Of a stretch of 64,000 nt of DNA, positions 1,004 through 38,905 are shown in pieces. The notes under the pieces were generated by a model. That model worked only from the letters and a program-made list of their open reading frames with translations. It was not told the DNA's origin and did not search any database. Both the position numbers and the translations under genes were made by a program. Numbering within the stretch: the first letter of the stretch is position 1; each line of letters opens with the position of its first letter. The DNA is from Methanococcus voltae (GTDB taxonomy: Archaea > AGJL01 > Methanococci > Methanococcales > Methanococcaceae), in contig NZ_JAGGMO010000008.1 in NCBI RefSeq assembly GCF_017875395.1, forward strand, positions 1 to 64,000, in the 5' to 3' direction.

Positions 1004-3589
1004 TTATTTAATAACTCTATAACCAGAACTAGTCCACTCTACAACAATAGGTTCAGTAGGTAACTCCGTAAGAGTTTCAAAGTATTTTAAAGCAGCTTCA
1101 GTTCCTAATCTATCGGAACCAGCTATATAGATTAACTTATAATTCTGTATTACAGTTGAAGAGCCTGAAGGAATTGAAATAACTTGTATAATTCCCCTAT
1201 TTTCTCCAGGATTATCATTAGTTACGGGGATAGAGAATCTATCGTTGTATTGGTTAGCTATTCTGTTAGCTATTGGTCCACCTACGATAATCGTATCTCC
1301 ATCGATTTCAGTATCGTCTGAATGTATATTTTCTTTTAATTCTTTTGCTAACTGTTTATCGAAGCTACTTCCGTAAACTACGTTTGAATTTGAAACTGTC
1401 CTTCTTAATGAGCTTGATTCTATGCTTGGTGAAGCATCTATTTTATTATTCTTATTGTTATTTGAAGGTACGTGAGTATCTATTGTAAATGTTGTAGTTG
1501 TTGAATTACTGTTGTTAGCATTATCGGTAGATGTAACGTTTAATAGGTATGTTCCATCGTTTAATGTTTTTTCCGCTACGTAGTAATCTCCTGTTTTAGT
1601 TAATGTAATGTTTTCATTAATATTTCCATTAGTTATGTTTGCCTTTACTTCTTTAACTTTAGATCCAGAATCTAAAGAGCTAACGTTTATTAAGAATTTA
1701 TTAGTTTTTAAAGTTCCTGTTGGTGTGTTTATTGATACGTTTGGAGCTGTTGTATCTATAACGATCCATTGTTTTTTAACAGCTCTATTTCCTGCATTAT
1801 CAAATACATAGAGTTTTAGCGAGTAATTTTTATCAAGTAGACTATTATAACTTAGGTAGTAAAAAGTAGGATATTCTGCAAGAGTATTATTCCAATCGCC
1901 AAGTTCAGCTACTATTCTATCAATACCACTTGCGTCTACTGCAGTTACATTTACTATAAACCTATCTACGTTTAATATTGATTTATTTACTGGTGAAAGC
2001 ACCGTGAAAGTAGGTAGTGTCGTATCAACTGAGAATATTACTTCATCGGTTACGTTTTTGTTTCCTACAATATCTTCAGCGTAAACCTTTAAACTATATT
2101 TCCCATCTATAAATGTTTCATTTAATGTATAATAACTATTATTTTTATTTAATGTATAATTAGTTCCATTTATGTTTGCTTTTACTTCTTTTATTCCATT
2201 TGTATCGTTTGCTGTAGCATTTATAAATATATTAGTTGTATTGTATACTTTAGCTGTTGGAGTGTTTATTGATACGTTTGGAGCTGTTGTATCTACAACA
2301 ACCCATAGTTTTTTAACAGCTCTATTTCCTACATTATCGAAAGCATATATTGTTAATGAGTGATTTTTATCCGTTAGATTGTCATATGTGACATCATAAT
2401 ATGTAAGATATTCTGTAAGTGTAGTATTTGAATCGCCAAGCTCGGATATTATTTTATTAACACCACTTGCATCTCTTGCAGTTACATGTACTCTAAATTT
2501 TGGTATGTTATATATTGAGTTATTTGAAGGTATATGTACTGTGAAAGTTGGACCTTGAGTATCGATTAATCGAGGCAAATAATCAATATTATCTAGAACT
2601 ATAGGGTATGGTTCATCACAAAATCCATCATTGTCATTGTCAGGATGAGTTTCTGAGAAACCTGTTCCTTTTGGATTAAACCAGTAGTTTCCGCCACCTT
2701 TTTCTTTTGTAGTGCTCCAACTGTTTCTTTTAATGGGTACTATCCTTAAATTGTTTGTGTTATTAAATATATTGCCTACAAAAGAGTTACTTTCGGAATA
2801 GTATATGGAAATACCTTGAGCTTTTGAATTTATAACACTATTATTTATGATATAATTATTGTACGATTGATATAGATGAATACCATCGAATTTTGAACTT
2901 ATAATACAATTATATAATAAAGAATTATTTGTTGATTTATCCAAGTAAATGCCATAATTGTTTAAATTTACAGTATTATTTCTAATTAATGTATTATTAG
3001 AATTCCTTAGATTAATGCCATAACTAGTTGAATTTATGGTATTATTAACAAGGGGATTGCTATTAGAATCCGATAGTGAAATACCAATACCATTTGAATT
3101 TAAAGTATTATTTAATAAAGAAGTATTAATTGACTTACTTAAACTAATGCCGCAAACATTTGAATTCACTGTATTATTAATAATAACGTTATTCTTGGTA
3201 TTATGTATCGAAATACCATACTCTTTGTTTGAACTCACAGTGTTATTAACAATCCTGAGATTATAGGAATAAAACGTAGAGATACCTGCAGTAAAATTCT
3301 TTATTATAATGTCCTGTATTGTAACATTCTTTACAGGATCTACGTAAATAGCAGTACTTCCAGTACCATTACCATCTAGGGTAAAACCATTACCTTTGAG
3401 TGTTACATTATCGCAACAAATTCTAATGGGATTTCCCAAGGGGGCAGTTATGTTGTTATTTAAATAATATATTCCGGGGCTTGTAATCCGCGTTTGTTTA
3501 GTTATTGCATTATCTGCATACGCCGTATTAACAGCTAACATCATTATGACTAAGAACGTAAAAAATATCAGTTTATTATTTAGCTTCAT
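1004..3589 (-). CDS. Secreted beta-helix / Ig-like surface protein 1
   Basis: Start chosen at the ATG at 3589, which has GGAGG nine bases upstream; an ATG 15 codons earlier lacks this. The product is about 861 aa. It opens with a signal peptide (LIFFTFLVIMMLAVNTAYA), followed by NosD-like parallel beta-helix rungs to about residue 310 (NNTxxxN pattern). Next is a GGNYW block with a calcium-loop-like DNDNDGFCDE. Four Ig-like modules of about 90 residues follow, each starting DT(Q/T)xP. The last 140 residues (from about 723) are an S-layer-like domain with VGGPIANRIA and IAGSDRLGTEAALKYF, shared with three neighbours. Expected to be exported and cell-wall associated, and rich in N-glycosylation sequons. 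Ligand unknown. It is the only family member here with Ig-like modules. Confidence 0.85.
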   Translation of the reverse strand: MKLNNKLIFFTFLVIMMLAVNTAYADNAITKQTRITSPGIYYLNNNITAPLGNPIRICCDNVTLKGNGFTLDGNGTGSTAIYVDPVKNVTIQDIIIKNFTAGISTFYSYNLRIVNNTVSSNKEYGISIHNTKNNVIINNTVNSNVCGISLSKSINTSLLNNTLNSNGIGISLSDSNSNPLVNNTINSTSYGINLRNSNNTLIRNNTVNLNNYGIYLDKSTNNSLLYNCIISSKFDGIHLYQSYNNYIINNSVINSKAQGISIYYSESNSFVGNIFNNTNNLRIVPIKRNSWSTTKEKGGGNYWFNPKGTGFSETHPDNDNDGFCDEPYPIVLDNIDYLPRLIDTQGPTFTVHIPSNNSIYNIPKFRVHVTARDASGVNKIISELGDSNTTLTEYLTYYDVTYDNLTDKNHSLTIYAFDNVGNRAVKKLWVVVDTTAPNVSINTPTAKVYNTTNIFINATANDTNGIKEVKANINGTNYTLNKNNSYYTLNETFIDGKYSLKVYAEDIVGNKNVTDEVIFSVDTTLPTFTVLSPVNKSILNVDRFIVNVTAVDASGIDRIVAELGDWNNTLAEYPTFYYLSYNSLLDKNYSLKLYVFDNAGNRAVKKQWIVIDTTAPNVSINTPTGTLKTNKFLINVSSLDSGSKVKEVKANITNGNINENITLTKTGDYYVAEKTLNDGTYLLNVTSTDNANNSNSTTTTFTIDTHVPSNNNKNNKIDASPSIESSSLRRTVSNSNVVYGSSFDKQLAKELKENIHSDDTEIDGDTIIVGGPIANRIANQYNDRFSIPVTNDNPGENRGIIQVISIPSGSSTVIQNYKLIYIAGSDRLGTEAALKYFETLTELPTEPIVVEWTSSGYRVIK

Positions 3590-3929
3590 GCCTGTTTTCC
3601 TCCATATGTTATGAATATATGTATAGTTATTCAATTAAATAATTGTTGATTTAGGTTATAAAGATAGTTCTAAAATTGTAATATTATATACGATAAAATA
3701 AAAAATAAATAATAAAAAATAAATAATAGAAATAAAAAATAAAAAATAAATTTGTTAAAAAAGAAGTCGATTATATATTATTTTACTAAAAAATGATTAA
3801 TATTCCTAATTATCAACTTATAAATTTATTTTATAGTTATTTTAATTAGATATCTGATTTAATCGATATGAATAATTATTTATTTAATAAACTAAATAAA
3901 TAATTATGTAAAATATGCTGGAGGATATT
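3590..3929. promoter_or_regulatory. Divergent promoter region of surface genes 1 and 2
   Basis: This 340-bp AT-rich gap lies between two divergently transcribed surface-protein genes and holds no ORF. TATA-like stretches occur on both strands (ttataaatttatttt near 3819 for the plus gene; tatataatatta near 3682-3694 read on the minus strand). Each gene has a GGAGG ribosome binding site. The exact promoter elements are inferred, not demonstrated. Confidence 0.4.
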
Positions 3930-6035
3930 ATGAACAAAAATTATAAAATATTATTTTTTACAATGTTAATGGTAACAATATTGGCCGTTAATACATCATA
4001 TGCAGAGATTGGTACCCCAATAACGGGGCCTGTTACAATAGATACGCCAGGAATGTATTATTTAGCAAATAATATAACCCTTTCAGAAAGTGCTAATGCC
4101 ATAACTATTGAATGCGGTAACATAACAATAGATGGAAAGGGATTTACCCTTGATGGGTCAGTATATGATAGTGTTGCTATAACGACAAATACTACTGCAC
4201 TGATTAAAAATGTCACAATAAAAAATTTTAAAATAAAAAATTTTAATAGTGGTATATATTTATGTGATATGGAAAACGCCACTATTATAAACAATACCGT
4301 CTATTCGAATAAATATCATGGTATCTTCACATTTTTTGCTACCAATGTAACAATTGCAAATAATACGGCCTATTCAAATAATAATAATGGTATTTGCCTA
4401 TCTTTTACTCATGACAGTACAATTAAAGATAATAACGCAAGTTTAAATAATAATGGTATTTATATAGCCTACTCTACGAAAAATAAAGTTATAAACAATA
4501 CTATGAATTCAAATGGTTATAGGGGTATTGAAGCACTTGAATCTGATAATAACACCTTTATAAACAATAATATAACGTTAAGTAATGACGATGGTATTTT
4601 TCTAGAGGACTCTAATAATGCCATATTTATTAATAATACCATAAGTTCAACCGTGATTAATGGTGGTATCGAGTTAAAAAACTGTAATAATACAGTATTT
4701 ACTAATAATACAGCTTATTCAAATGATGATGAAGGTATTCGTTTAAACGCCTGTAATAATACAGTATTTATAAACAATACTATCTATTCAAATGGCGAAG
4801 AGGGTATTTACCTCACTAATTCCCATAATAACACCATTATAAACAATAATGTAAGTTTAAATTATGACGAACAGGGTATTTACCTCACTAATTCCCATAA
4901 TAACACAATTGCAAATAATACTGTGAATTCAAATCAGGAAGAGGGTATTTACCTCACTAATTCCCATAATAATACAATTGCAAATAATAAAGTATGTTTA
5001 AATGAAGATGAGGGTATTTATCTGGGTAGTTCGCATAATAACACCATTATAAACAATAATGTAAGTTTAACCCAGAATAATGACGATGGTATGTACTTCA
5101 TTAATTCCCATAATAACACAATTGCAAATAATACTGTGAATTCAAATACGCGAGAGGGTATTTACATATACTGGTCCAATAACAATACAATTGCAAATAA
5201 TACTGTGAATTCAAATACTAATAATGGTATTTATTTAGGATATTGCTGTAATAACACCCTTATAAATAATATTATAAATTTAAATAATGAATCGGGTATT
5301 AGAGTAACTAACTCATATAATAACTCAATATATGTTAATAGATTTAACAATACAAAAAACGTTTTCTTATCCGATAACATGGGATTAAATTACTTCAACA
5401 CAACAAAAGAGAAAGGTGGTGGAAACTACTGGTTTACACCCGAAGGAACAGGTTTCTCTGAAACTCATGCAGATTTAGATAAAGACGGTTTCTGTGACGA
5501 AATATACAATATATCCTTAGGTAACATAGATTACTTACCAAAATGTTTTAAAAGAGAAGAACCGGCACCTAAATCAAGCAATAATAACAATAAAAAATTA
5601 GATGCTTCCACTAGTATCGATTCTAAGTCTTTAAGAAGGACAGTTTCAAATTCAAACGTAGTTTACGGAAGTAACTTCGATAAACAATTAGCTGAAGGTT
5701 TAAAGGAAAATATACATTCAGACGATACTGAAATAGACGGAGATACAATTATCGTAGGTGGGCCAATAGCTAACAGAATAGCTAACCAATATAATGATAG
5801 ATTCTCTATCCCGGTAACTAATGATAATCCTGGAGAAAATAGAGGAATTATACAAGTTATAAGTATTCCTTCAGGCTCTTCAACTGTAATACAGAATTAT
5901 AAGTTAATCTATATAGCTGGTTCTGATAGATTAGGAACTGAAGCTGCTTTAAAATACTTTGAAACTCTTACAGAGTTACCTACTGAACCTATTATCGTTG
6001 AGTGGACTAGTTCTGGTTATAATGTAGTTAACTAA
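3930..6035 (+). CDS. Secreted NosD-like beta-helix surface protein 2
   Basis: Start at the ATG at 3930, where GGAGG lies six bases upstream; an in-frame ATG five codons earlier is rejected. The product is 701 aa. A signal peptide ends near SYA (residue ~25). Residues ~80-480 are parallel beta-helix rungs of about 22-24 residues built on NNTIxNNTVNSN, with several nearly exact copies (YLTNSHNNTI). Then come GGNYW and DLDKDGFCDE (calcium-loop-like), a short linker and the C-terminal S-layer-like domain (residues ~560-701). The tail ends in TSSGYNVVN. The beta-helix fold is typical of sugar-binding or copper-periplasmic NosD-type proteins; here a cell-surface role is inferred. A 102-bp orphan tail follows 7 bp after the stop. 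Confidence 0.85.
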   Translation: MNKNYKILFFTMLMVTILAVNTSYAEIGTPITGPVTIDTPGMYYLANNITLSESANAITIECGNITIDGKGFTLDGSVYDSVAITTNTTALIKNVTIKNFKIKNFNSGIYLCDMENATIINNTVYSNKYHGIFTFFATNVTIANNTAYSNNNNGICLSFTHDSTIKDNNASLNNNGIYIAYSTKNKVINNTMNSNGYRGIEALESDNNTFINNNITLSNDDGIFLEDSNNAIFINNTISSTVINGGIELKNCNNTVFTNNTAYSNDDEGIRLNACNNTVFINNTIYSNGEEGIYLTNSHNNTIINNNVSLNYDEQGIYLTNSHNNTIANNTVNSNQEEGIYLTNSHNNTIANNKVCLNEDEGIYLGSSHNNTIINNNVSLTQNNDDGMYFINSHNNTIANNTVNSNTREGIYIYWSNNNTIANNTVNSNTNNGIYLGYCCNNTLINNIINLNNESGIRVTNSYNNSIYVNRFNNTKNVFLSDNMGLNYFNTTKEKGGGNYWFTPEGTGFSETHADLDKDGFCDEIYNISLGNIDYLPKCFKREEPAPKSSNNNNKKLDASTSIDSKSLRRTVSNSNVVYGSNFDKQLAEGLKENIHSDDTEIDGDTIIVGGPIANRIANQYNDRFSIPVTNDNPGENRGIIQVISIPSGSSTVIQNYKLIYIAGSDRLGTEAALKYFETLTELPTEPIIVEWTSSGYNVVN

Positions 6036-6042
6036 CCTTTTG

Positions 6043-6144
6043 ATGAAACTTTTTTCAAAAGTTTCCTTTGAAACTCTTACAGAACTTCCTGAAGAACCTA
6101 TTGTTGTAGAATGGGTTGATGGAGGATTTAGAGTGGTTGAATAA
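6043..6144 (+). other. Orphan C-terminal tail cassette A (33-codon mini-ORF)
   Basis: This is a 102-bp unit starting at an ATG (MKLFSKVS) and running directly into a copy of the last 25 codons of the surface-protein family (FETLTELPEEP...), ending DGGFRVVE. The preceding gene ends TSSGYNVVN, so the orphan carries a different ending, the one used by surface proteins 3 and 4. The unit includes a hairpin with arms GAAACTTTT and AAAAGTTTC. No good ribosome binding site is visible, so translation is doubtful; it reads as a silent 3' cassette or recombination remnant. Confidence 0.8.
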
Positions 6145-6338
6145 CCCCTTTTTATGAAACTTTTGAAAATACAAAACATGCCCATCATCTTAAAAATCTT
6201 AGATTTTTAAAATATCTAAAATCGAAGATTTTATATAAAGGATTTTTACTCGTTTCACTCGTAAAAATGGTTTGGAGTGAAGCTTTTTTCAAAAGTTTCG
6301 TTGAGTGGACTTCTAACGGACATATGGTAGTTAAATAA
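6145..6338 (+). repeat. Spacer repeat plus degenerate second tail
   Basis: After cassette A comes a spacer homologous to the one behind surface gene 1 (blocks aatacaaaacatgccc, catcatcttaaaa, atggtttggagtgaagc), then a hairpin arm (ttttttcaaaagtttc). Bases 6300-6338 then encode VEWTSNGHMVVK and a stop. This is another family ending, but only 12 codons long and joined at VEW instead of FETL. It is a truncated fourth tail. Confidence 0.65.
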
Positions 6339-6520
6339 AAATAATAAATAATAATAAAATAATAACTTAATAAAAATAAAATTAAAATACTTTTTTCTTT
6401 TTTTTAATTGATTAGTATTTTTAGTTATTATTGTCTACACCACATATTCAATAATCTAAATCAACAAGTATTTATCCTATTAAAAAAATAAATGATTTCA
6501 TAAGATTTGTGGAGGATAAT
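6339..6520 (+). promoter_or_regulatory. Upstream region of surface gene 3
   Basis: AT-rich region without an ORF between the degenerate tail and surface gene 3. The ribosome binding site GGAGG sits just before the ATG at 6521, as in genes 1, 2 and 4. No distinct operator was recognised. Confidence 0.35.
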
Positions 6521-9043
6521 ATGAACAAAAACTATAAAATAACATTTTTTATGTTACTAATGGTAACAATGTTAGCGATTAATGCAACGTATGCAGATAT
6601 GCCAATAACTACAACTCAATCAATCAATACGCCTGGAAAATATTATTTAGCCAATAATATAACAGTTTCAGATGCAGATGCTATAATTATTACATGTGCC
6701 AATGTAATAATAGATGGTAAAGGGTTTACCATAAAAGGAAATAATAATATGATGATAAAAGGGATATATGTATATGATTCTTCGATTGTTGACAATATCA
6801 CAATAAAAAATGTTAAAATATCTAATTTCGGAAGAGGTATACATATACAAAATGCAAGAAATATAACTATTGTAAATAATACCATAATTTCAAACAATGT
6901 TCATGGTATAGAACTTGCGAATTCTAATAATAACACCGTTATAAATAATACAATGAATTCAAATAAGGATTATGGTATTCGTATCAGTTATTCCGACAAT
7001 AACACCGTTATAAATAATAATATTAGTTCAAACCAAGAAGAGGGTATTTACGTAACAAATTCTGAATTTAACCTTATTACGAACAATACTGTGAGTTCAA
7101 ATTTAGGATTGGGCATTAGCTTATTAGCTTCTAATAATAACACTTTTGCAAATAATAGCATTACATTAAACGGTTATGATGGTATCCGATATTTCAACTC
7201 CCATTATAACACATTTACAAATAATAATATTAGTGTAAATAATAGGGACATATACGGTTTGGGAGGTATTGTCGCAATGAGTTCTAAAGGTAACTCCTTT
7301 ACAAATAATACTATACATTCAAATGGAAAGTATGGTATTTATTACAAGAATACAGAGGATGAATCCCTTACGAATAATAAAATAAGTTCAAACTTTAATT
7401 ATGATGTTTGGATGGAAGATTCCAAAAATATCGCTATAGTAAATAATACAATGAATTCAAGTACTGAAAATATTTATTTGGAGAACACTCAAAATATTAC
7501 AATTATTGGAAATTCTTTAAATGAGGGTATTACCATATCTGAATTAGATGGAAGTTACTTATTTTATTATAATACTCACACGATAGTAAATAACACAGCA
7601 AATGGTAAAACAATTTACTATTATAAAAATAATAATACGGGAAAAGTTACAGAAGATGCTGGGCAGGTAATACTCGCAAATTGTTCAAACATGATAGTAG
7701 AGAATTTAGACATATCCGACGTATATACTGGACTACTTGTAATATATAGCTCAAATTGTTCAGTAAAAAATAATAATATTAGTTCAAATCAGGGTATAGC
7801 TATTTATAACTACTATTCTGAGAATAATACGATTACAAACAATATATTGAATTCAAATAGATTAGAGAGTATTTATATACGTGAATCTAATAATACCATA
7901 ATTACGAATAATACCGTATGTTTAAATAGTGAAGAGGGTATTCACTTACGTAATTCAAATAACTCTATAATTATGTGTAATAATGCAAGTTTAAATGATG
8001 ATGAACAGGGTATTCGCTTAGATAGTTCGCATAATAACACAATAAGAAATAATATCGTAAATTCAAACCAAGAAGAGGGTATTTACTTAACTAGTTCTGA
8101 TAATAACACCATTGAGAATAATATTGCATTCTTAAATGGGGATGAAGTTATTCACTTAATTAACTCAAATAATAACAAAATAAGAAATAATATCGTATGC
8201 TTAGGTAAGGAAGAAGGTATTTATTTAGAGAATTCTAATAATAACACAATTACGAATAATACTGTGAATTCAAACCAAGAAGAGGGCATTCAGTTACTTA
8301 ACTCAAATAATAACGCAATATATCTCAATAAATTTAACAACAGTAATAACGTATATGTTGAGAATTCTAACTTAAATTACTGGAATACTACAAAAGAGAA
8401 CGGTGGCGGTAATTACTGGGCAACTCCAAACGGAACAGGTTTCTCTGAAACTCATGTAGATTTAGATAAAGACGGTTTCTGTGATGAAATATTTAATATT
8501 TCATTAGATAACATAGATTACTTACCAATTTCTGGCAAAAAAGTAGAACCAACGCCTGAGCCACAGCCTGAGCCAACATACAACAGAAATAATAACAATA
8601 AAAAATTAGATGCTTCACCAAGCATAGAATCAAGCTCATTAAGAAGGACAGTTTCAAATTCAAACGTAGTTTACGGAAGTAGCTTCGATAAACAGTTAGC
8701 AAAAGAATTAAAAGAAAATATACATTCAGACGATACTGAAATAGATGGAGATACAATTATCGTAGGTGGACCAATAGCTAACAGAATAGCTAACGTTTAC
8801 AACGATAGATTCTCTATCCCTGTAACTAATGATAATCCTGGAGAAAATAGGGGAATTATACAAGTTATAAGTATTCCTTCAGGTTCTTCAACTATAGTTC
8901 AAAGTTATAAGTTAATCTATATAGCTGGTTCTGATAGATTGGGAACTGAAGCTGCTTTAAAATACTTTGAAACTCTTACAGAGTTACCTACTGAACCTAT
9001 TGTTGTAGAATGGGTTGATGGAGGATTTAGAGTGGTTGAATAA
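6521..9043 (+). CDS. Secreted NosD-like beta-helix surface protein 3
   Basis: Start at the ATG at 6521 (GGAGG seven bases upstream, same MNKNYK N-terminus as protein 2). About 840 aa: signal peptide ending near TYA; a first beta-helix block; a NosD-type hinge around residues 360-420 (NGKTIYYYKNNNTGKV, then AGQVILANCSNMIVENLDIS); a second beta-helix block; GGNYW and DLDKDGFCDE; a Pro/Glu linker (EPTPEPQPEPT); and the shared S-layer-like C-terminal domain from about residue 700. The tail ends DGGFRVVE. The 3' 825 bp form an inverted repeat with surface gene 4. Exported, cell-envelope location inferred; ligand unknown. Confidence 0.85.
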   Translation: MNKNYKITFFMLLMVTMLAINATYADMPITTTQSINTPGKYYLANNITVSDADAIIITCANVIIDGKGFTIKGNNNMMIKGIYVYDSSIVDNITIKNVKISNFGRGIHIQNARNITIVNNTIISNNVHGIELANSNNNTVINNTMNSNKDYGIRISYSDNNTVINNNISSNQEEGIYVTNSEFNLITNNTVSSNLGLGISLLASNNNTFANNSITLNGYDGIRYFNSHYNTFTNNNISVNNRDIYGLGGIVAMSSKGNSFTNNTIHSNGKYGIYYKNTEDESLTNNKISSNFNYDVWMEDSKNIAIVNNTMNSSTENIYLENTQNITIIGNSLNEGITISELDGSYLFYYNTHTIVNNTANGKTIYYYKNNNTGKVTEDAGQVILANCSNMIVENLDISDVYTGLLVIYSSNCSVKNNNISSNQGIAIYNYYSENNTITNNILNSNRLESIYIRESNNTIITNNTVCLNSEEGIHLRNSNNSIIMCNNASLNDDEQGIRLDSSHNNTIRNNIVNSNQEEGIYLTSSDNNTIENNIAFLNGDEVIHLINSNNNKIRNNIVCLGKEEGIYLENSNNNTITNNTVNSNQEEGIQLLNSNNNAIYLNKFNNSNNVYVENSNLNYWNTTKENGGGNYWATPNGTGFSETHVDLDKDGFCDEIFNISLDNIDYLPISGKKVEPTPEPQPEPTYNRNNNNKKLDASPSIESSSLRRTVSNSNVVYGSSFDKQLAKELKENIHSDDTEIDGDTIIVGGPIANRIANVYNDRFSIPVTNDNPGENRGIIQVISIPSGSSTIVQSYKLIYIAGSDRLGTEAALKYFETLTELPTEPIVVEWVDGGFRVVE

Positions 9044-9052
9044 CCCCTTTTG

Positions 9053-9154
9053 ATGAAACTTTTTTTAAAAGTTTCCTTTGAAACTCTTACAGAGTTACCT
9101 ACTGAACCTATTATCGTTGAGTGGACTAGTTCTGGTTATAATGTAGTTAACTAA
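9053..9154 (+). other. Orphan C-terminal tail cassette B (33-codon mini-ORF)
   Basis: Same 102-bp architecture as cassette A: ATG, MKLFLKVS, then a copy of the family ending from FETLTELPTEP to TSSGYNVVN and a stop. The upstream gene ends DGGFRVVE, so gene and orphan endings are exchanged relative to the gene 2/cassette A pair. The cassette is also in frame with the preceding TAA stop at 9041-9043, with no intervening stop, so readthrough would append a second tail. A hairpin follows at about 9160-9185. Confidence 0.8.
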
Positions 9155-9261
9155 CCTTTTGATGAAACTTTTTTCAAAAGTTTCATTTCATTATTTACTT
9201 TTTTACTTTTTTTTATTAAACGTTTTAAATTAAATTTAAAGTTTTTTTAAGATTGTTATTT

Positions 9262-9444
9262 TTAAATAAATATATTAACAATCACATTAATATCAAATAT
9301 AAAATTAACTGGAATAGTTATAAGAGCTAATTTTATTAACATATTTAAATACATATTTGAATTTATTGTATAACTATTATTTTTAGAGGGGTTATTTTCA
9401 TTTTTTATGTTTACGGTATTTGAGTTTCCGATTATTATTATCAT
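9262..9444 (-). CDS. Small hypothetical protein with hydrophobic C-terminus
   Basis: A 60-codon ORF with a convincing archaeal ribosome binding site (GGTGAT, five bases before the ATG). The N-terminal half is polar and Asn-rich; the C-terminal half (MLIKLALITIPVNFIFDINV) could be one membrane segment. No family recognised. A GC-richer, possibly structured leader lies immediately upstream. The ribosome binding site and leader are the reasons for calling it; the amino-acid composition alone would not be enough. Confidence 0.4.
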   Translation of the reverse strand: MIIIIGNSNTVNIKNENNPSKNNSYTINSNMYLNMLIKLALITIPVNFIFDINVIVNIFI

Positions 9445-9598
9445 AGTAAATCACCTTTTTGTGCTACATTGCTTTTAGTTTTGGAAGTCCCCTTAACTTC
9501 CCTAATTATACCTTGTCCTGGCGTATAGATTAAGCCCAGTATACTCATTAAGCTTAATAGACTTAGTAAACTTATTAGGCTTAATATTTTTATATGAT
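9445..9598 (-). ncRNA. Candidate structured leader RNA
   Basis: Read on the minus strand, a TATA-like atataaaaatatt at about 9586-9598 is followed by some 120 bases before the small ORF. Bases 9481-9540 hold 26 G/C of 60, against well under 20% in neighbouring spacers. Two stems can be drawn: GGAAGT/ACTTCC (9483-9501), and TATA plus CTGG paired with CCAG plus TATA (9507-9543). In AT-rich methanogens, GC-rich intergenic islands often mark functional RNA. Riboswitch, leader or unrelated RNA cannot be told apart; no known class recognised. Confidence 0.35.
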
Positions 9599-9653
9599 AA
9601 AAAACAAATCAGTATAATAAAAAAATAAAAAAATAAAAAATCAAGGGATTATT

Positions 9654-10751
9654 GTGAACGATAAAACGTCTAATTATACAATAAGGGAAAAAACTAATGA
9701 TTTACAAAAAAATATGGAAAATATGAAGAATAAAGGTTCTAGGGTACATATTGCGGTTTTAGGTTATGAATTAGATAGAATAACCGAAGTTCCAATTGAA
9801 ATACGTACAGATAAGGTATATATAATCACACGTAATGAAGATAAAGAAAGCCCGGAAGCAGTTAAATTTTTGAATGAATGTATAAATAGATTGGAAGATA
9901 ATAAAATTAAGACATTTATTAGGCGAAACGAACCCTTAAATCTTGAAAATATAATTGTTGAAATGAAAAAGATTATTAAATTTGAAAAAATGAACGAAGT
10001 ACGTGAAATTTATATAAATGTTTCATCCGGCAGTAGTGTAGGGGCAATTGCTGGAACAATATGCGCTATGCTTTTTTCCGATGAAAATACGAAAATTACC
10101 CCATATTATGTTATACCTAATGAACATTATGAAAATTTAAGTGACGAAGAAAAATTAAAAAAGCAAGAAAATTATCGGAAATTGGGCTACGATGGAATTA
10201 TGCCACGTTCTTTTGGCGTTTATGGAATAGAGTATGTCACTCCTTTTAATATAAGTCTTCCCGATGAAAAATTAATGATATTTGCAAAGAGAATTTATGA
10301 AATGGAAAGAGAAAGCGAATACGGAGTTTCAATGAAAAAGATTGCAAAGTTAGTAATTGAAACAAAAGAATCTCAAAATCTTATAAAATTAATAACTGAG
10401 CCCGAGAATAAAGAAGAAGAGGAATATAATAAAAAATTAATGGAAGATCTGTTAAAAAAATATAAAAAATTGGATTATGGGGAAAATGAGATATTAACTA
10501 TGATTGAAGAAAATTACACCATACTAAAATGGAGAAAAATGAGGATGGGTATTGAAAAAGGCGACGAAGAAAATATAAAAAGATTGCAAAGAGAAAAACC
10601 AGAACCTGTGGATTATGTTTGGCTTAAACAAAATGTAATCTCTAAATTACAAAAATGGGAAATGATTGAAATACCTGAAGATAGAATTGGAGGCTATAAA
10701 AGAGTTAAATTAACAAAAAAAGGAGAAGATTTAGTTAAATATTTATATTAA
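9654..10751 (+). CDS. CARF-domain transcriptional regulator (HFX_2341/DUF6293-like)
   Basis: GTG start at 9654 with agggatt upstream. The N-terminal ~200 residues look like the CARF-type Rossmann fold of the HFX_2341 (DUF6293) family: RVHIAVLGYELDRITEVPI opens the domain, and a Ser/Gly loop NVSSGSSVGAIAG lies at residues ~121-133, where CARF proteins bind cyclic oligonucleotides or other nucleotides. The C-terminal ~70 residues form a winged helix (WLKQNVISKLQKWEMIEI then GGYKRVKLTKKGEDLV). The likely role is a ligand-controlled DNA-binding regulator. No CRISPR array or cas gene is in the window; the next genes are a type I modification system. Family call is from motif recognition; target genes unknown. 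Confidence 0.7.
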   Translation: MNDKTSNYTIREKTNDLQKNMENMKNKGSRVHIAVLGYELDRITEVPIEIRTDKVYIITRNEDKESPEAVKFLNECINRLEDNKIKTFIRRNEPLNLENIIVEMKKIIKFEKMNEVREIYINVSSGSSVGAIAGTICAMLFSDENTKITPYYVIPNEHYENLSDEEKLKKQENYRKLGYDGIMPRSFGVYGIEYVTPFNISLPDEKLMIFAKRIYEMERESEYGVSMKKIAKLVIETKESQNLIKLITEPENKEEEEYNKKLMEDLLKKYKKLDYGENEILTMIEENYTILKWRKMRMGIEKGDEENIKRLQREKPEPVDYVWLKQNVISKLQKWEMIEIPEDRIGGYKRVKLTKKGEDLVKYLY

Positions 10752-11050
10752 CTTATCACTGTTGTTATAATTTATAAATACTTTGTAATAAATTATAAAT
10801 AATTTGAAATAACATGTTTTTTAAATATTTTCTTTTTATTTGTTAATATATGTAATTTTATTTTTTCTTTTTACATTTCTATTATTATTCCATTAATATT
10901 CTATTACTATTCTATTACTATTCTATTATTATTCCATTAATTATTTTAAAAATTTATTGGGAAAATACTTTTTCAACACATATATTAATAACAAACATCT
11001 AAACAAGATAATATAATAAAGTAATTAACGATAATTTTTTTAGTGATACT
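10752..11050. other. Intergenic region before hsdS
   Basis: No gene. Contains short direct repeats of the form attctattactattc / attctattattattcc at about 10876-10940, T-rich runs that could end the CARF transcript, and the upstream region of hsdS. No operator identified. Confidence 0.4.
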
Positions 11051-12193
11051 ATGGTTACCATATTTGAAAATTTACCTGAAGACTGGGAAATTAAGAAATT
11101 AGGTGAAATTGCAAAAATCCGAACTGGAAAATTGGATGTAAATGCTGAAAAACCCGACGGTAAGTATCCTTTTTTCACTTGCTCCAAGGAGATTCACAAA
11201 ATCAATGAATGGAGATACGATTGTGAATGTGTATTGGTTGCAGGAAATGCAGATTTGAATGTAAAGTACTATAAAGGTAAATTTAACGCATATCAAAGAA
11301 CCTATATCCTAGAAGTTTTAGATAAACGAATAATAAAAACCAAATATCTATATTATTTTTTGAGTGTATATGTTGATATATTACGAAAAAAAAGCAATGG
11401 GGGGGTTATAAAATACATAAAGTTATCTGATTTGGCGGATATATGTTTACCAATTCCTCCATTAAATATACAACACGAAATCGTTAAAATTTTAGAAAAT
11501 ATAGAAAATGGGATAAATTTAAGGGAAAAAGCAATTTTGGAAACTGAAAATTTAATAAAATCTGTGTTTTTAGATACTTTTGATGACCTCTGGCACAATC
11601 CAAAAGGTTGGGATGTTACGGAAATAAAAAAAGTATGTTTAAAAATACCAAATATAGTCCCAAACGAGTCTTTAGCTGACGAATATATTAATTACATTGA
11701 TATATCGGCAATAGATAACACGTCTAAAAAAATAGTAAATGTTAAAAAAATTAAGGGGAAAGAAGCCCCCATCAGAGCAAGACAAATTTTAATGAAAGAT
11801 GATATTTTAGTAGCCATAGTTCGACCTAATTTAAATTCTGTAGCATTAGTATCTAATGAATATGATAACTTGATTGCTTCTACAGGATTTTGTGTTTTAC
11901 GCCCTAAAAAAAATATGATTAATGAAAAATATTTATTTGAAATTTCAAAATCAGATTATTTCATATGTAATTTAGTTTCGAAATGCAAAGGTGCAAATTA
12001 CCCTGCAGTTAACAAACCGGATGTATTGAATTTGGAAATTCCAATACCGCCAATAGATTTACAAAATAAATTTGCTGAAATCGTTCAAAAATTAGAAGAA
12101 ATTAAAGAAAAACAAATTAAATCAAAGGAAGAAATGGAAGAATTATTTAATTGTTGTTTATATACTACTATTATTGGTAATTTAATCAAATAA
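11051..12193 (+). CDS. hsdS: Type I restriction-modification specificity subunit HsdS
   Basis: 380 aa with the usual two-fold layout: target recognition domain 1 (from LPEDWEIKKLGEIAKIRTG), a conserved helical spacer (LADICLPIPPLNIQHEIVKILENIENGI split over residues ~125-160), target recognition domain 2 (from NPKGWDVTEIKKVCLKI), and a second spacer helix (IPIPPIDLQNKFAEIVQKLE). HsdS sets the DNA sequence recognised by the HsdM methylase. The length is typical. It lies 50 bp upstream of hsdM in the same direction, so the two are probably co-transcribed, in the less usual S-then-M order. A GTGAT-like element precedes the ATG. Confidence 0.9.
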   Translation: MVTIFENLPEDWEIKKLGEIAKIRTGKLDVNAEKPDGKYPFFTCSKEIHKINEWRYDCECVLVAGNADLNVKYYKGKFNAYQRTYILEVLDKRIIKTKYLYYFLSVYVDILRKKSNGGVIKYIKLSDLADICLPIPPLNIQHEIVKILENIENGINLREKAILETENLIKSVFLDTFDDLWHNPKGWDVTEIKKVCLKIPNIVPNESLADEYINYIDISAIDNTSKKIVNVKKIKGKEAPIRARQILMKDDILVAIVRPNLNSVALVSNEYDNLIASTGFCVLRPKKNMINEKYLFEISKSDYFICNLVSKCKGANYPAVNKPDVLNLEIPIPPIDLQNKFAEIVQKLEEIKEKQIKSKEEMEELFNCCLYTTIIGNLIK

Positions 12194-12243
12194 TACATAT
12201 TAAATTTTTATGTACTTTTAAAGATTAATTAAAAGGTATTATC

Positions 12244-13746
12244 ATGTTAAAAAAGGAATTAAAATCAGAAATAAGCAAATTATGGGACAAATTTTGGAGT
12301 AATGGAATTTCAAACCCCTTAACGGCAATAGAACAAATGTCATACTTATTATTTCTAAAAAGAATGGAAGTAGAGGATACCAAAAAACAAAATGCTACGA
12401 AATATAACTCTGAATTAAACTATGTTTCAGTATTTAACGGCTATGAAAATTGTAAATGGTCAAAATGGTCAAAAATGGAAGGCAAAGAAATGTGTAAATA
12501 TATTGATAATGTCGTATTTCCATTTTTAAAAGAATTGGGAACTTCTGATTCATTATATGGAATTTATATGAAAGATGCAACCTTTGCAATACCTAATGCT
12601 TCTTTATTGCTCGAAGCTGTCAACGTAGTTGATAACCTATACTTGGATAACTTAAACTATGACGTTAATGGAGATATATACGAATATTTGCTTTCAGAAT
12701 TAAAAACTGCGGGTAAAAATGGTCAGTTTATGACTCCGCGACACATTATTAAACTTATGATGGAAATGGTAGACCCCCAAGTCGGAGAAACTATTTACGA
12801 CCCTGCATGTGGTACTGCTGGTTTTTTAGTTTCTGCACATGAATATATTTTGGAAAAAAACAGTTCGAAAGATGGGGTAATATACGATGAAGAAGGTTAT
12901 CCTTTTGACTATGCAGGTGACAAACTGAACGATAATGATTGTAAAACACTAAAAACAAAAATGATTTATGGTTCAGAATTTGACCAAACTATGGTTAGAA
13001 TTGCGTTAATGAACTTAATGATGCACGGTATTGAATCACCTCACATATTTAGAAAAAATAGCCTGGTTGATTGTGAAGAAAACAAAAACCAATATAATGT
13101 AATATTAGCAAATCCTCCGTTTAAAGGCACGTTGAATAAAAAAGAGCTATCAAGTAGCTTTACAATTAATACAACAAAAACAGAACTTTTATTCCTTGAA
13201 TTAATATATAATTTATTAAAAGGTGGAGGACGATGTGCGATTATTGTACCTGATGGTGTGCTATTTGGAAGTAGTAAAGCACATAAAAAGATTAGGGAAA
13301 AGTTATTGAATGAGTGTAGGCTTGACGCAGTTATTTCAATGCCCCCTGGAGTTTTTAGACCATATACGGGTGTTTCAACCGCCATATTATACTTTATAAA
13401 AGGAGAACCAACAAAAAAAGTATGGTTCTATAACATGACTAATGATGGATACACATTGGATGATAAAAGAAATATAATTGATGGAAAAGGGGATATTCCA
13501 GATATTATAAAAAGTTTTAAAGAAAGATACGATCAGGACGAAAACAACCGTAAGGGCAAAAATTTCTTCGTAACGTTTGAAGAAATTAAAAAAAATAATT
13601 ATGATTTAAGTATTTTAAAATATACGGAAATTGAATATAAAATTCCTGATTACGATAAACCTGAGATTATAATTAAAAGAATTAATGATTTAGAAGATGA
13701 AATTAAGAAAAGTTTTGAAGAATTAGATGTGCTAATGAAAAAATAA
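12244..13746 (+). CDS. hsdM: Type I DNA adenine methyltransferase HsdM
   Basis: 500 aa. An N-terminal helical HsdM domain (residues ~5-135) is followed by the class I methylase core. The SAM-binding motif DPACGTAGF is near residue 186, and the N6-adenine catalytic motif NPPF is near residue 290 (ILANPPFKG). FMTPRHIIKLM before motif I is characteristic of HsdM. Together with HsdS it methylates adenine at a bipartite site. No hsdR endonuclease gene lies on either side: upstream is the CARF regulator and downstream is a surface-protein gene. It may therefore act as a methylation-only system, or depend on an HsdR elsewhere. Confidence 0.93.
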   Translation: MLKKELKSEISKLWDKFWSNGISNPLTAIEQMSYLLFLKRMEVEDTKKQNATKYNSELNYVSVFNGYENCKWSKWSKMEGKEMCKYIDNVVFPFLKELGTSDSLYGIYMKDATFAIPNASLLLEAVNVVDNLYLDNLNYDVNGDIYEYLLSELKTAGKNGQFMTPRHIIKLMMEMVDPQVGETIYDPACGTAGFLVSAHEYILEKNSSKDGVIYDEEGYPFDYAGDKLNDNDCKTLKTKMIYGSEFDQTMVRIALMNLMMHGIESPHIFRKNSLVDCEENKNQYNVILANPPFKGTLNKKELSSSFTINTTKTELLFLELIYNLLKGGGRCAIIVPDGVLFGSSKAHKKIREKLLNECRLDAVISMPPGVFRPYTGVSTAILYFIKGEPTKKVWFYNMTNDGYTLDDKRNIIDGKGDIPDIIKSFKERYDQDENNRKGKNFFVTFEEIKKNNYDLSILKYTEIEYKIPDYDKPEIIIKRINDLEDEIKKSFEELDVLMKK

Positions 13747-13785
13747 AAAAAAGTAAGAAACTTTTGAAAAAAGTTTCATCAAAAC

Positions 13786-13887
13786 TTATTCTATAACTTT
13801 AAACCCATCAGCAGTCCACTCAACGATAATAGGTTCAGTAGGTAACTCTGTAAGAGTTTCAAAGGAAACTTTTAAAAAAAGTTTCAT
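13786..13887 (-). other. Orphan C-terminal tail cassette C (33-codon mini-ORF)
   Basis: Third 102-bp cassette, nine bases behind the stop of surface gene 4. It starts with ATG (MKLFLKVS), joins the family ending at the same Phe codon (FETLTELPTEP), and ends with a third variant, TADGFKVIE. It is flanked on both sides by the hairpin with GAAACTTTT and AAAAGTTTC-type arms (13757-13780 and 13864-13887). No full-length gene in the window uses the TADGFKVIE ending. Confidence 0.8.
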
Positions 13888-13896
13888 CAAAAGGGG

Positions 13897-16800
13897 TTAT
13901 TCAACCACTCTAAATCCTCCATCAACCCATTCTACAACAATAGGTTCAGTAGGTAACTCTGTAAGAGTTTCAAAGTATTTTAAAGCAGCTTCAGTTCCCA
14001 ATCTATCAGAACCAGCTATATAGATTAACTTATAACTTTGAACTATAGTTGAAGAACCTGAAGGAATACTTATAACTTGTATAATTCCCCTATTTTCTCC
14101 AGGATTATCATTAGTTACCGGGATAGAGAATCTATCGTTGTAAACGTTAGCTATTCTGTTAGCTATTGGTCCACCTACGATAATTGTATCTCCATCTATT
14201 TCAGTATCGTCTGAATGTATATTTTCTTTTAATTCTTTTGCTAACTGTTTATCGAAGCTACTTCCGTAAACTACGTTTGAATTTGAAACTGTCCTTCTTA
14301 ATGAGCTTGATTCTATGCTTGGTGAAGCATCTAATTTTTTATTGTTATTATTTCTGTTGTATGTTGGTTGTGGCTCAGGTTGTGGCTCAGGCGTTGGTTC
14401 TACTTTTTTGCCAGAAATTGGTAAGTAATCTATGTTATCTAATGAAATATTAAATATTTCATCACAGAAACCGTCGTTATCATTATCCGGAGTTATTTCA
14501 GAGAAACCTGTTCCGTTTGGAGTTGCCCAGTAATTACCGCCACCGTTCTCTTTTGTAGTATTCCAGTAATTTAAGTTAGAATTCTCAACATATACGTTAT
14601 TACTGTTGTTAAATTTATTGAGATATATTGCGTTATTATTTGAATTTTCTAAATAAATACCAGTCTCATTATTTGAATTTACAATATTGTTTATAATGGG
14701 ATTATTAACAGAATCTTCTAAATAAATACCCCAATTATTTGAATTTGCAGTATTATTTATAAGAGGAGTATTATCACAATTATCTAAATAAATACTATAA
14801 TCATTTGAATTTGCAGTATTATTTATAAGGGAGTTATTAACAGAATCTTCTAAATAAATACCCCAATTATTTGAATTTGCAGTAGAATTTATAATGGGGT
14901 TATTATTGGAATAGTATAGGTAAATACCACAATCGTTTGAATTTGCAGTATTATTTATAAGGGAGTTATCATTAGAATTTCGTAAATAAATACTCCAATA
15001 GTTTGAATTTGCAGTATTATTTATAAGGGAGTTATCATTAGAATTTCGTAAATAAATACTCCAATAGTTTAAATTTGCAGTATTATTTATAAGGGAGTTA
15101 TCATTAGAATTTCGTAAATAAATACTCCAATAGTTTGAATTTGCAGTATTATTTATAATGGAGTTATTATTGGAAACATATACGTAAATGCCATACTCAG
15201 TGTTTAAATTTGCAGTAGTATTTATAATGGAGTTATTATTGGAAACATATACGTAAATACCATAACATTCGTTCGAACTTGCATTATTAGTTATAACGGA
15301 GTTATTATTAGAATTAGTTAAATAAATACCATTATTATTGTTTGAATTTGCAGTATTATTTATAATGGAGTTATTATTAGAATTACTTAGAGAAATACCA
15401 TTATTAATGTTTAAACTTGCGGTATTATTTATAATGGAGTTATTATTGGAATAGAATAAGGAAATACCATAATCGTTTGAACTTATATCATTATTTTTTA
15501 CTGAACAATTTGAGCTATATGTCATAAATAGTCCATTACATACATTGGATAAATTCAAATTTTCAACAATCATATTTGAACAGTTTGCGAGTATTACCTG
15601 TCCAGCATCTTCTGGAACTTTTCCTGTATTGTTATTTTTATAGTAGTAAATTGGTTTACCATTTGCTGTGTTATTTAGTATCGTATGGCTATTATATTGT
15701 AATAAAGAACTTCCGGAAATACGAATACCCTTCGTCAATGAATTTTCAATAACGGTATTATTTTGTGAATTTTCCAATTTTATACAATAAATACTTGAAT
15801 TTGCAGTATTATTTATAAGAGAGTTATTATTAGAATTATCTAAAAAAATACCATACTTGTTTGAATTTACAGTATTATTTATAAAGGAGTTATCATTGGA
15901 ATAGTATAGGTAAATATCATACTTGTTTGAATTTACAGTAGTATTTATAATGGAGTTATCATTGGAATTTCGTAAATAAATACCACAATTGCTTGAATTT
16001 GCATTATTATTTATAATGGAGTTATTAACAGAATTAGTTAAATAAATACCATTAATGTTTGAATTTGCATTATTAGTTATAACGGAGTTATTATTGGAAT
16101 AGTCTACATAAATACCACTATTAATGTTTGAATTTGCAGTATTATTTATAATGGAGTTATTATCAGAATTTTTTACATAAATACCATTATCACTGTTTGA
16201 ACTTGCATTATTAGTTATAATGGAGTTATTAACAGAATTAAGTAAATAAATACCATTCTTTGTATTTGAATTTGCAGTATTATTTATAATGGAGTTATTA
16301 TCAGAATTACTTATAGAAATACCATTATTAATGTTTAAACTTGCGGTATTATTTATAATGGAGTTATTATTGGAATAGTCTACATAAATACCACTATTAC
16401 TGTTTGAACTTGCATTATTAGTTATAACGGAGTTATTAACAGAATTACTTAGAGAAATACCAAAATTGTTTGAATTTGCATTATTATTTATAACGGAGTT
16501 ATTAACAGAATTACTTAGAGAAATACCAAAATTGTTTGAATTTGCAGTATTATTTATAATGGAGTTATTATTGGAATAGTCTACATAAATACCATTTTCC
16601 CTGTTTGAAATTACAGTATTATTTATAATGGAGTTATTATCGGAATAGTATACGAAAATACCATAATCGTTTAAACTTGCATTATTAGTTATAACGGAGT
16701 TATTATTAGAATTAGCTAAATAAATACCATTATTATTGTTTGAATTTGCAGTATTATTTATAATGGAGTTATTATTGGAGTTATATACGAAAATACCGAA

Positions 16801-17430
16801 ATTGTTTGAACCTGCATTATTATTTATAAAGGAATTATTATTAGAATTATCTAAAAAAATACCAAAATCGTTTGAAATTACAGTATTATTTATAATGGAG
16901 TTATTATCGGAATAGTATAGGTAAATACCCTTATTAGTGTTTGAACTTGCATTATTAGTTATAAAGGAGTTATTATTAGAATTAACTAACCAAATACCAT
17001 TATTACGGTTTGAATTTACAGTAGTATTTATAAAGGAGTTATTATTAGACTTTCGTAAATAGATACCATCACTGTTTGAAATTACAGTAGTATTTATAAA
17101 GGAGATATCCTTAGAATTATCTATAAAAATACCACACGTGAATTTCGTTATGTTAACGTCCTTTATTGTAATATTATTTACACCATCTGCATATATCGCT
17201 TTCCCCATATAATTACCGGATATAGTAAATCCTTTACCATCAAGTATTACATTATCACAATTAATAGTTATAGCACTATCTGAAACTGTTATATCATTAG
17301 CTAAATAATACTTTCCCGGCGTATCTATCGTATCGGGTCCAGATATCGGCGTATCTGCATATGTCGTATTGATTGCTAACATTGTCACCATTAGTAACAT
17401 AAAAAATGCTATTTTATAATATTTATTCAT
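13897..17430 (-). CDS. Secreted NosD-like beta-helix surface protein 4
   Basis: 1177 aa, ATG at 17430 with GGAGG nearby. A signal peptide (IAFFMLLMVTMLAINTTYA) leads into two long beta-helix blocks separated by the NosD-type hinge near residues 570-630 (NGKPIYYYKNNNTGKV, AGQVILANCSNMIVENLNLS). More than 30 rungs repeat NNNSIINNTANSN with little variation at protein and DNA level, including a 66-bp unit present three times in a row. Then come GGNYW, DNDNDGFCDE, a PEPQP linker and the S-layer-like domain from about residue 1036. The tail ends DGGFRVVE. Nearly every rung offers two N-glycosylation sequons. Cell-surface role inferred; ligand unknown. Confidence 0.85.
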   Translation of the reverse strand: MNKYYKIAFFMLLMVTMLAINTTYADTPISGPDTIDTPGKYYLANDITVSDSAITINCDNVILDGKGFTISGNYMGKAIYADGVNNITIKDVNITKFTCGIFIDNSKDISFINTTVISNSDGIYLRKSNNNSFINTTVNSNRNNGIWLVNSNNNSFITNNASSNTNKGIYLYYSDNNSIINNTVISNDFGIFLDNSNNNSFINNNAGSNNFGIFVYNSNNNSIINNTANSNNNNGIYLANSNNNSVITNNASLNDYGIFVYYSDNNSIINNTVISNRENGIYVDYSNNNSIINNTANSNNFGISLSNSVNNSVINNNANSNNFGISLSNSVNNSVITNNASSNSNSGIYVDYSNNNSIINNTASLNINNGISISNSDNNSIINNTANSNTKNGIYLLNSVNNSIITNNASSNSDNGIYVKNSDNNSIINNTANSNINSGIYVDYSNNNSVITNNANSNINGIYLTNSVNNSIINNNANSSNCGIYLRNSNDNSIINTTVNSNKYDIYLYYSNDNSFINNTVNSNKYGIFLDNSNNNSLINNTANSSIYCIKLENSQNNTVIENSLTKGIRISGSSLLQYNSHTILNNTANGKPIYYYKNNNTGKVPEDAGQVILANCSNMIVENLNLSNVCNGLFMTYSSNCSVKNNDISSNDYGISLFYSNNNSIINNTASLNINNGISLSNSNNNSIINNTANSNNNNGIYLTNSNNNSVITNNASSNECYGIYVYVSNNNSIINTTANLNTEYGIYVYVSNNNSIINNTANSNYWSIYLRNSNDNSLINNTANLNYWSIYLRNSNDNSLINNTANSNYWSIYLRNSNDNSLINNTANSNDCGIYLYYSNNNPIINSTANSNNWGIYLEDSVNNSLINNTANSNDYSIYLDNCDNTPLINNTANSNNWGIYLEDSVNNPIINNIVNSNNETGIYLENSNNNAIYLNKFNNSNNVYVENSNLNYWNTTKENGGGNYWATPNGTGFSEITPDNDNDGFCDEIFNISLDNIDYLPISGKKVEPTPEPQPEPQPTYNRNNNNKKLDASPSIESSSLRRTVSNSNVVYGSSFDKQLAKELKENIHSDDTEIDGDTIIVGGPIANRIANVYNDRFSIPVTNDNPGENRGIIQVISIPSGSSTIVQSYKLIYIAGSDRLGTEAALKYFETLTELPTEPIVVEWVDGGFRVVE
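14936..15133 (-). repeat. Three perfect-length 66-bp tandem repeats in surface gene 4
   Basis: Three consecutive copies of a 66-bp unit encode WSIYLRNSNDNSLINNTAN rungs, almost without base differences. Since 66 is a multiple of three and equals one 22-residue beta-helix rung, slippage or unequal crossover would lengthen or shorten the helix without breaking the frame. Confidence 0.85.
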
Positions 17431-37732: not shown

Positions 37733-38905
37733 TTATCTTATTTTCTTAGTAACGATTATATAGCTTCCCATCTGATTATTCATTATTTTAGGGTTACATT
37801 TATAACTAACTTCATTTTTAACGCTTCTTCTTTCATCAAATGAATATATATCTAATAATTCAAAGCCTTTTTCTTTCATATAACTTATATATCCATCTAA
37901 CGTTAAATCGTTTTTAAAAGTATTGCTTGCTCCTTCTTTTCCAAGTGAGGAAAATGAAAACATATTCCAATCAATGTTTTCAAAACTTTGTCTAAGCTTG
38001 TATTCGTCTCCGATTCCTTCTGAAAATATTTGTTTATTTACAAATACACCATTTGGAGCCATTGCATCGTAAATTTTATCAATTACTTCAATACTTTTAC
38101 AACCAGGGCTATGGGAAGTAAATACTAAATCATATCCTTTTGAATTTGAATCGTCTAACGTTTCAACAATCGTACCTTTGTAATAGTCACCGGGTGCAGT
38201 AGTTACTCTATCAGAACCGTATTCTTCAATGTATTTTTCTGTTTCTTCGCAAACTTTTGGTAAATCAAATATTTTACATTTTGAGTCTTCATTTAGGTAT
38301 GATAACGCTATACCATACAAACCGTGACCGCCTGCAACATCTAAAATACTTTTAGCGTTTTTAACTTCCTCGAACTGAGATAAATAATCAATTGTAGCTT
38401 TTAATTTACGGGAACGGCAATCAGTAACCATTCTTCTAACTGCTTCGCTGAAAAATGATTTTTCTTTTAATTTAGGCTCTTTTCCCATAAAGGTATCTTC
38501 TAAATTAATCCATTTTTTAGCTCTGCCTTTGTATGTAAGTAGTGGCGATACAGAGTCTATCCCACTAAATTCAGATTTTGGATTTAAGTAAATATTTGCA
38601 ATCTCTGAAGTTTCGTAATAAGTTTCTGCACTGTTATGGGATCGGTTGTATCTATTTATTAATCCAAATTGCACTAGTGCGTCCAATAAATTTAATAATA
38701 AGTTATCATTAGGTTTAAAACCCTGTTCTTCAAACCATATTTTGAGTTGTTCAAAAGTTTTTGGTTCTTCTAGGAGTTCGTATATATTGTATTTTAAACT
38801 GAATTCCATTAAGTAAAATTTTCTTAAACCTAAATATGCTTCTTCAAAAAGATTTTCAATGTGTTCGGGTCCTAATTTTGGACATTCCATTACGTTTTTG
38901 CTCAT
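37733..38905 (-). CDS. SAM methyltransferase paralog 2 (O-methyltransferase-2 fold)
   Basis: 390 aa, same two-domain layout as its neighbours: winged-helix part (LKYNIYELLEEPKTFEQLKI) and SAM motif SILDVAGGHGLYGIALSYL with FDLPKVCEETEKYI. After motif I comes LVFTSHSPGCKSIEVIDKIY, where paralog 1 has SSYNPGGK, so the active-site region varies. The C-terminus has YKCNPKIMNNQMGSYIIVTK instead of the His-rich insert of paralog 1. AGGTGG precedes the ATG. It lies 70 bp downstream of paralog 3, probably in one transcript. Confidence 0.75.
   Translation of the reverse strand: MSKNVMECPKLGPEHIENLFEEAYLGLRKFYLMEFSLKYNIYELLEEPKTFEQLKIWFEEQGFKPNDNLLLNLLDALVQFGLINRYNRSHNSAETYYETSEIANIYLNPKSEFSGIDSVSPLLTYKGRAKKWINLEDTFMGKEPKLKEKSFFSEAVRRMVTDCRSRKLKATIDYLSQFEEVKNAKSILDVAGGHGLYGIALSYLNEDSKCKIFDLPKVCEETEKYIEEYGSDRVTTAPGDYYKGTIVETLDDSNSKGYDLVFTSHSPGCKSIEVIDKIYDAMAPNGVFVNKQIFSEGIGDEYKLRQSFENIDWNMFSFSSLGKEGASNTFKNDLTLDGYISYMKEKGFELLDIYSFDERRSVKNEVSYKCNPKIMNNQMGSYIIVTKKIR

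Follow-up and report, generated by a model that had tools for sequence, protein, structure and literature searches.

C-terminal displacement is known from bacterial toxin loci. Its logic was proposed for the tips of rhs genes (Jackson et al., 2009; PMC2935791), and for the T6SS effector-immunity arrays of Vibrio cholerae homology-facilitated illegitimate recombination has been proposed (Kirchberger et al., 2017; PMC5361080). Here we describe a family of surface-protein genes of Methanococcus voltae, several of which are followed by short orphan copies of a gene's 3' end. We consider it rather likely that these cassettes are the products of repeated C-terminal (3'-end) displacement, i.e., displaced or stacked tails, which could act as donors. 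If so, C-terminal displacement would reach beyond bacterial toxin loci to surface proteins of archaea, with no toxin-immunity logic involved. No earlier report for an archaeal surface-protein family or for methanogens was found in the open literature, which is not proof of absence; the sequence-only reading of this DNA had named no such system in methanogens either.

The window, i.e., the whole stretch of DNA analysed, comprises positions 1-64,000 of contig C8 of a 1.90-Mb genome (15 contigs, GC 28.5%); other positions are given as contig and coordinate. Genes 1-4 of the window encode NosD/parallel-beta-helix surface proteins that share a C-terminal domain (Table 1). Orphan units of 102 bp each, running from ATG to stop, begin 7, 9, and 9 bp past the stop codons of genes 2, 3, and 4, respectively, and their coordinates are as the sequence-only reading had given them. 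All three units read MKLF(S/L)KVS-FETLTELP(T/E)EPI(V/I)VEW followed by nine residues that differ from unit to unit, and contain a 21-bp hairpin of the form GAAACTTTT-nnn-AAAAGTTTC. Among the open reading frames of at least 100 amino acids in the 64-kb window only genes 2-4 have their own 3' end copied downstream (18-37 nt exact), the next best exact copy being 13-14 nt long. Gene 1 carries a long version of the hairpin after its stop codon (about 819-1003) and no orphan tail. The 39-nt remnant behind gene 2 is presumed to be the native end of this gene.

Table 1. Surface-protein genes, hairpins, and orphan tails in the window.
Feature	Position	Strand	Description
Gene 1	1004-3634	-	Shared C-terminal domain at 1004-1381; tail TSSGYRVIK
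Gene 2	3915-6035	+	C-terminal domain at 5658-6035; tail TSSGYNVVN
Hairpin 3' of gene 2	6045-6065	+	
Gene 2 orphan tail unit	6043-6144	+	ATG, hairpin, 25 codons; tail VDGGFRVVE
Gene 2 hairpin, long version	6147-6300	+	Broken by a dispersed repeat element of about 120 bp
Gene 2 third tail remnant	6300-6338	+	VEWTSNGHMVVK-stop, 39 nt; begins at the right foot of the hairpin
Gene 3	6509-9043	+	C-terminal domain at 8666-9043; tail VDGGFRVVE
First hairpin 3' of gene 3	9055-9075	+	
Gene 3 orphan tail unit	9053-9154	+	Tail TSSGYNVVN
Second hairpin 3' of gene 3	9164-9184	+	Followed by ordinary 3' UTR
Gene 4	13897-17430	-	C-terminal domain at 13897-14274; tail VDGGFRVVE
First hairpin 3' of gene 4	13865-13885	-	
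Gene 4 orphan tail unit	13786-13887	-	Tail TADGFKVIE
Second hairpin 3' of gene 4	13757-13777	-	

The sequence-only reading had stressed the equal length, the identical left junction, and the retained reading frame of the units. Length and left junction agree at genes 2-4, which represent one shared junction class, but 102 bp is one class among several and elsewhere the orphan tails measure about 19, 24, 32, 34, and 39 nt. The tails are intact throughout, in the six full orphan tails of the genome as well as in the shorter remnants, whereas the ATG of the unit is in frame with the tail in some junction classes only. As no ribosome-binding site is evident ahead of it either, the ATG is probably incidental, and for the same two reasons a translated mini-ORF starting at this codon was rejected.

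The C-terminal domain spans about 125 residues and received no name from Pfam; in a search of the PDB by sequence only, an S-layer protein matched weakly (E 0.085). Its AlphaFold model has a mean pLDDT of 48, too poor for a fold search, with values of 68-79 in the last two blocks. In this model the exchanged residues seem to make up the terminal beta-hairpin of the domain. Since the swapped residues are probably this last beta-hairpin, tail exchange probably varies the C-terminal end of the protein conservatively.

Several other features of the window and the genome were recorded. The convergent genes 3 and 4 are separated by a block (9654-13746) with an HFX_2341-like gene, HsdS, and HsdM (type I restriction-modification specificity subunit and methylase), beside which no HsdR gene was identified; in another genome of the genus (G006) the corresponding surface genes directly adjoin, so the HsdS/HsdM block was gained here or lost there. 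The dispersed element inside the long hairpins at 819-1003 and 6147-6300 measures about 120-165 bp (…ACAAAATATATCCATCATCTTAAAAACC…AATGGTTTGG), is apparently flanked by duplicated GATGAAACTTTT, and has other copies at C9:5818, C9:17325, C9:772, and C4:57756, the C4 copy being some 1.3 kb away from a tyrosine-recombinase-like gene. On the minus strand at 37733-47974 lies a run of similar-sized genes (about 390-400 aa), one of which was tested and codes for a periplasmic binding protein (PF01497), so that the run looks like a family amplified in tandem. At its start (1-120) the contig lies within a 15-bp tandem repeat of coding sequence (AGAAGTAGTTAATGA), with a TPR protein downstream, and repeats of this kind form the ends of several contigs of the genome. 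The start of C9 and the end of C11 share a CRISPR array, with the repeat GTTTCAATCCTTGTTTTAATGGAATTGCCACTGTGAC, in which the two contigs overlap.

In the 1.9-Mb genome the exact hairpin is found 16 times and the reversed control pattern not once, so the hairpin is not a chance occurrence, and all 16 matches sit 3' of the shared C-terminal domain family. A protein search returned 29 matches, namely 22 domain copies, one domain-start fragment, and the six full orphan tails, which are those of genes 2-4, a tandem pair at C6:117849-118032, and a single one at C11:6216. Each of about a dozen close copies of the gene has 0-2 orphan tails, in the layouts T-H-UTR, T-H-T-UTR, T-H-T-H-UTR, and T-H-T-H-T-UTR (T, tail; H, hairpin). 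A 19-nt duplicated stretch is found within the main family at C11 and C9:5974. Diverged subfamilies that retain tails of their own also have hairpins, with shorter duplicated stretches of 34 nt at C6:30262, 32 nt at the C6 end, and about 24-29 nt at C12/C8 end, where the copies at the end of C8 and the start of C12 are one locus split by the assembly (90-nt overlap). The assemblies are drafts, one genome per species, and break at these repeats, so that array lengths may be underestimated. At C6:120446-120507 a contig end lies inside the tail-hairpin-tail array of a paralog, so the assembly may have collapsed arrays that are longer. Outside the surface-domain family the palindrome pattern is not diagnostic, because among the matches listed for GTDB genomes it falls in scattered unrelated taxa, none of them Methanococcus. 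A scan of viral contigs gave nine matches, and no Rfam family was found at E ≤1 within the first 20 kb.

Relatives of the genome show in which direction the loci have changed. The exact hairpin is present here and in a sister species (G005, DNA about 90% identical), but in no other of seven genomes of the genus. G006 has, behind three copies with one tail each, a hairpin that is related but differs in its arms (GATGAAACC-TTTCA-GGTTTC); it was not seen in the copies read from other species of the genus, and 3'-end duplication was absent from the other sampled members of the family. As the G006 hairpin comes without duplication and these other members have no 3'-end duplication, the hairpin after the stop codon probably predates the tail arrays.

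Orthologous 3' ends were compared with the sister species at five loci; for genes 2-4 this species offers no resolved 3' end. Three loci are collinear through gene body and flanks. At G005 C2:172321 the sister species has T-H-T, while the locus in this genome has one tail and no hairpin; C6:30262 has T-H-T-H-T here vs. one tail and a hairpin there; and C12/C8 end has two tails here vs. one there, with the right-hand copy continuing into the conserved native UTR. Two further loci are collinear on the 3' side only, C6:118064 (three tails here, one in the sister species) and C9:16947 (a different tail), and here the flanks are 90-93% identical but the tails 76-79%. On contig C7 of the sister species a gene ends in VDGKSVLV and the hairpin, which are followed by VEWTSDGFKVIE-stop and a UTR start native to two other copies of that genome. 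Gene 4 has positional orthologs in both relatives; that of G006 is single-tailed, and that of the sister species (C5:1) runs off its contig within the repeated domain or shortly before it. Because orthologous loci carry a single tail, the comparison identifies the tail arrays as derived. Wherever this could be followed, the right-hand copy is read as the old native end and the left tail with its hairpin as the newcomer, since the native UTR is kept at the right-hand copy at C12/C8 end and at G005 C7.

Exchange between the copies has left long exact identities. The tail and hairpin of gene 2 match the cassette and hairpin of gene 3 exactly over 109 bp, an identity of 306 bp between genes 3 and 4 ends within the second tail, and C6 and C11 share an exact 131-bp stretch that runs from one tail through the hairpin into the next tail. 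Of the 1891 informative site pairs in 12 domain copies, 1055 do not fit a single tree, and incompatibility between neighbouring sites is below expectation (permutation p ≤0.0005), a signature of recombination that marks the domain as strongly mosaic. Paralogous tails are up to 95% identical here and 99% in the sister species; as orthologous tails are less alike than paralogous tails can be, the tails evolve in concert within each genome. Five changes, four of which are synonymous, separate the third tail at C6:30262 from the first two, and so few, mostly synonymous changes indicate that the newcomer tail came from a different functional allele. These comparisons support the view that tails are exchanged by recombination.

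To this extent the earlier proposal of exchangeable silent 3' cassettes was upheld, by the 109-bp and 306-bp identities, the mosaic domain, and the differing orthologous tails. In its stronger form the proposal is one of programmed switching: the tails downstream would be kept as a reservoir from which the C-terminus of the gene is varied by recombination. Genes 2 and 3 hold two tails reciprocally in gene and cassette position, every cassette is an intact reading frame, and the direct repeats of about 79-109 bp would permit loop-out or conversion. However, displacement alone yields the same pattern, there are one or two cassettes per locus and no fixed expression site, the three-tail arrays (C6:118064, C6:30262) hold nearly identical tails, and arrays were not found in the other species sampled. 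Synteny moreover points to the downstream copies as native or older tails, most of them single remnants that keep the native 3' UTR, so a dedicated reservoir is not supported and programmed switching seems unlikely to us.

The hairpin itself could instead be a tiny mobile element that inserts past the stop codon and copies the end of the gene as its target-site duplication, the tails diverging or being converted later. The two flanking copies are indeed identical at G005 C2:172321 (32 nt) and at the C6 end, and identical or nearly so at C12/C8 end, and a moving hairpin would account for its arrival in diverged subfamilies that keep their own tails. We nevertheless judge this improbable, as the duplication ranges from 19 to about 80 nt, all 16 hairpins stand behind one domain family, newcomer and remnant tails differ at many loci, and the related hairpin of G006 occupies the same place without duplication. 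Neither a Y1 (HUH) transposase (PF01797) nor a reverse transcriptase (PF00078) was found in the genome, with positive controls for both searches. Mobilisation of the IS200/605 or REP type was dropped for want of the former, and reverse-transcribed mRNA ends, which would explain the precise hairpin end, for want of the latter. Spacer-like insertion by Cas1, an idea prompted by the insert of about 30 bp, the 32-34-bp duplication at some loci, and the CRISPR array in the genome, was rejected because the insert is constant while the length duplicated can be anything from 19 to about 80 bp.

The junctions point to the hairpin foot. All 15 of 15 coding remnants, in six sequence classes from this genome and the sister species, begin at the right foot of the hairpin within about 1 nt, a count that is biased as the loci were partly found via the hairpin. 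The same start at the foot holds for the six full orphan tails, which came from the protein search alone; they share one junction class and hence do not stand for six independent events. Genes 2-4 have the junction class in which the foot is joined to CTTTGAAAC. By inspection, microhomology at the right junction amounts to 0-5 nt, and the sequences past the foot have no common core site. The target position GGGTSGATGG recurs at non-orthologous loci in both species, which suggests either spread of the module or a target preference.

A deletion reaching from the hairpin foot to the tail of the next gene would give the same junction, and surface genes do stand in tandem (genes 2 and 3). The cassettes could thus be no more than degenerate 3' ends left by tandem surface genes that lost their bodies through deletion, the alternative that the sequence-only reading had named against itself. 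It is contradicted at the three loci, genes 2-4 not among them, that are collinear with a sister-species ortholog having one tail and no second gene, and with the remnants intact instead of decayed we regard it as very improbable. An attC site is much longer than the 21-bp hairpin. An integron-like site-specific recombinase using the hairpin as an attC-like site is scarcely credible despite the ORF-hairpin-ORF-hairpin layout and several tyrosine-recombinase-like genes with weak matches, since the integron integrase model TIGR02249 gave nothing above cut-off in the genome, with weak matches only and the same in all control genomes, and no core site is common after the foot.

Under repeated C-terminal displacement, the reading we prefer, the donor 3' end would consist of part of the shared C-terminal domain, the tail, the stop codon, and the 3' hairpin. 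On the left it would recombine into the recipient gene through the homology that the domain provides; on the right, where there is little homology or none, it would be joined precisely at the hairpin foot somewhere in the recipient's own tail. The recipient would then end in the new tail and hairpin, and its old tail would remain downstream with the native 3' UTR as an intact, probably untranslated remnant. The tail-hairpin-tail module, because it is homologous on both sides, could afterwards spread and reshuffle among paralogs by ordinary homologous recombination, giving rise to stacked arrays and swapped tails. The recombination step itself is inferred, as would be any function of tail switching. 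The one-sided illegitimate join may arise when repair synthesis halts as the copied hairpin folds, followed by end-joining. Natural transformation, documented in Methanococcus maripaludis (PMC10133366), is one route for incoming DNA. The whole process is possibly a neutral by-product of gene conversion.

Whether the 21-bp hairpin takes an active part is a separate matter. It is conceivable, though we think it doubtful, that the foot of the palindrome defines the donor end and that hairpin-bearing 3' ends invade hairpin-less ones within the gene family. This would amount to a minimal form of "homing" without known transposase or reverse transcriptase, by which surface proteins would be continually re-tailed. 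The hairpin-foot junctions lead to a specific recombination hypothesis that can be tested in a genetically tractable archaeal genus, Methanococcus. The loci offer a readable record of successive 3'-end replacements inside one genome, and a route by which multi-copy surface proteins may be homogenised and re-tailed between paralogs.

Among the known systems, integron arrays likewise consist of short reading frames in tandem with a hairpin after each, the newest one adjoining a fixed upstream part; they differ in that here no integrase reaches the cut-off, the hairpin is too short, and the tails are gene fragments instead of whole genes. REP/PATE palindromes are likewise short, multicopy, and located downstream of genes, but the hairpin of M. 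voltae is confined to one gene family and its genome yielded no Y1 transposase. With Borrelia vlsE and Neisseria pilE/pilS the family shares gene conversion among surface-protein copies and silent partial copies adjoining expressed genes, and recombination between expressed and silent copies was indeed found (109-bp identity, permutation test). In contrast to these systems there is no single expression locus with a large silent donor array, many genes are expressed, and variation is confined to the last nine residues.

The T6SS arrays of V. cholerae resemble the loci in serial displacement, in the old 3' module that is kept, and in the later spread of arrays by homologous recombination; retention pays there through immunity genes, an advantage not known for the remnants here. 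The rhs tips, being non-homologous toxin domains with large core fragments, differ from the tails described here, which are nine residues of a homologous short beta-hairpin in several variants, have a repeated fragment of at most 16 residues, come mostly from paralogs, join at the hairpin foot, and have no homology to rhs. As in rhs, however, a conserved upstream part is combined with a variable 3' end in serial arrays, the orphans mostly lack a start site, the displaced old end stays downstream in frame with a fragment of conserved sequence, and relatives show the ancestral tail that was displaced (G005 C7, five ortholog pairs).
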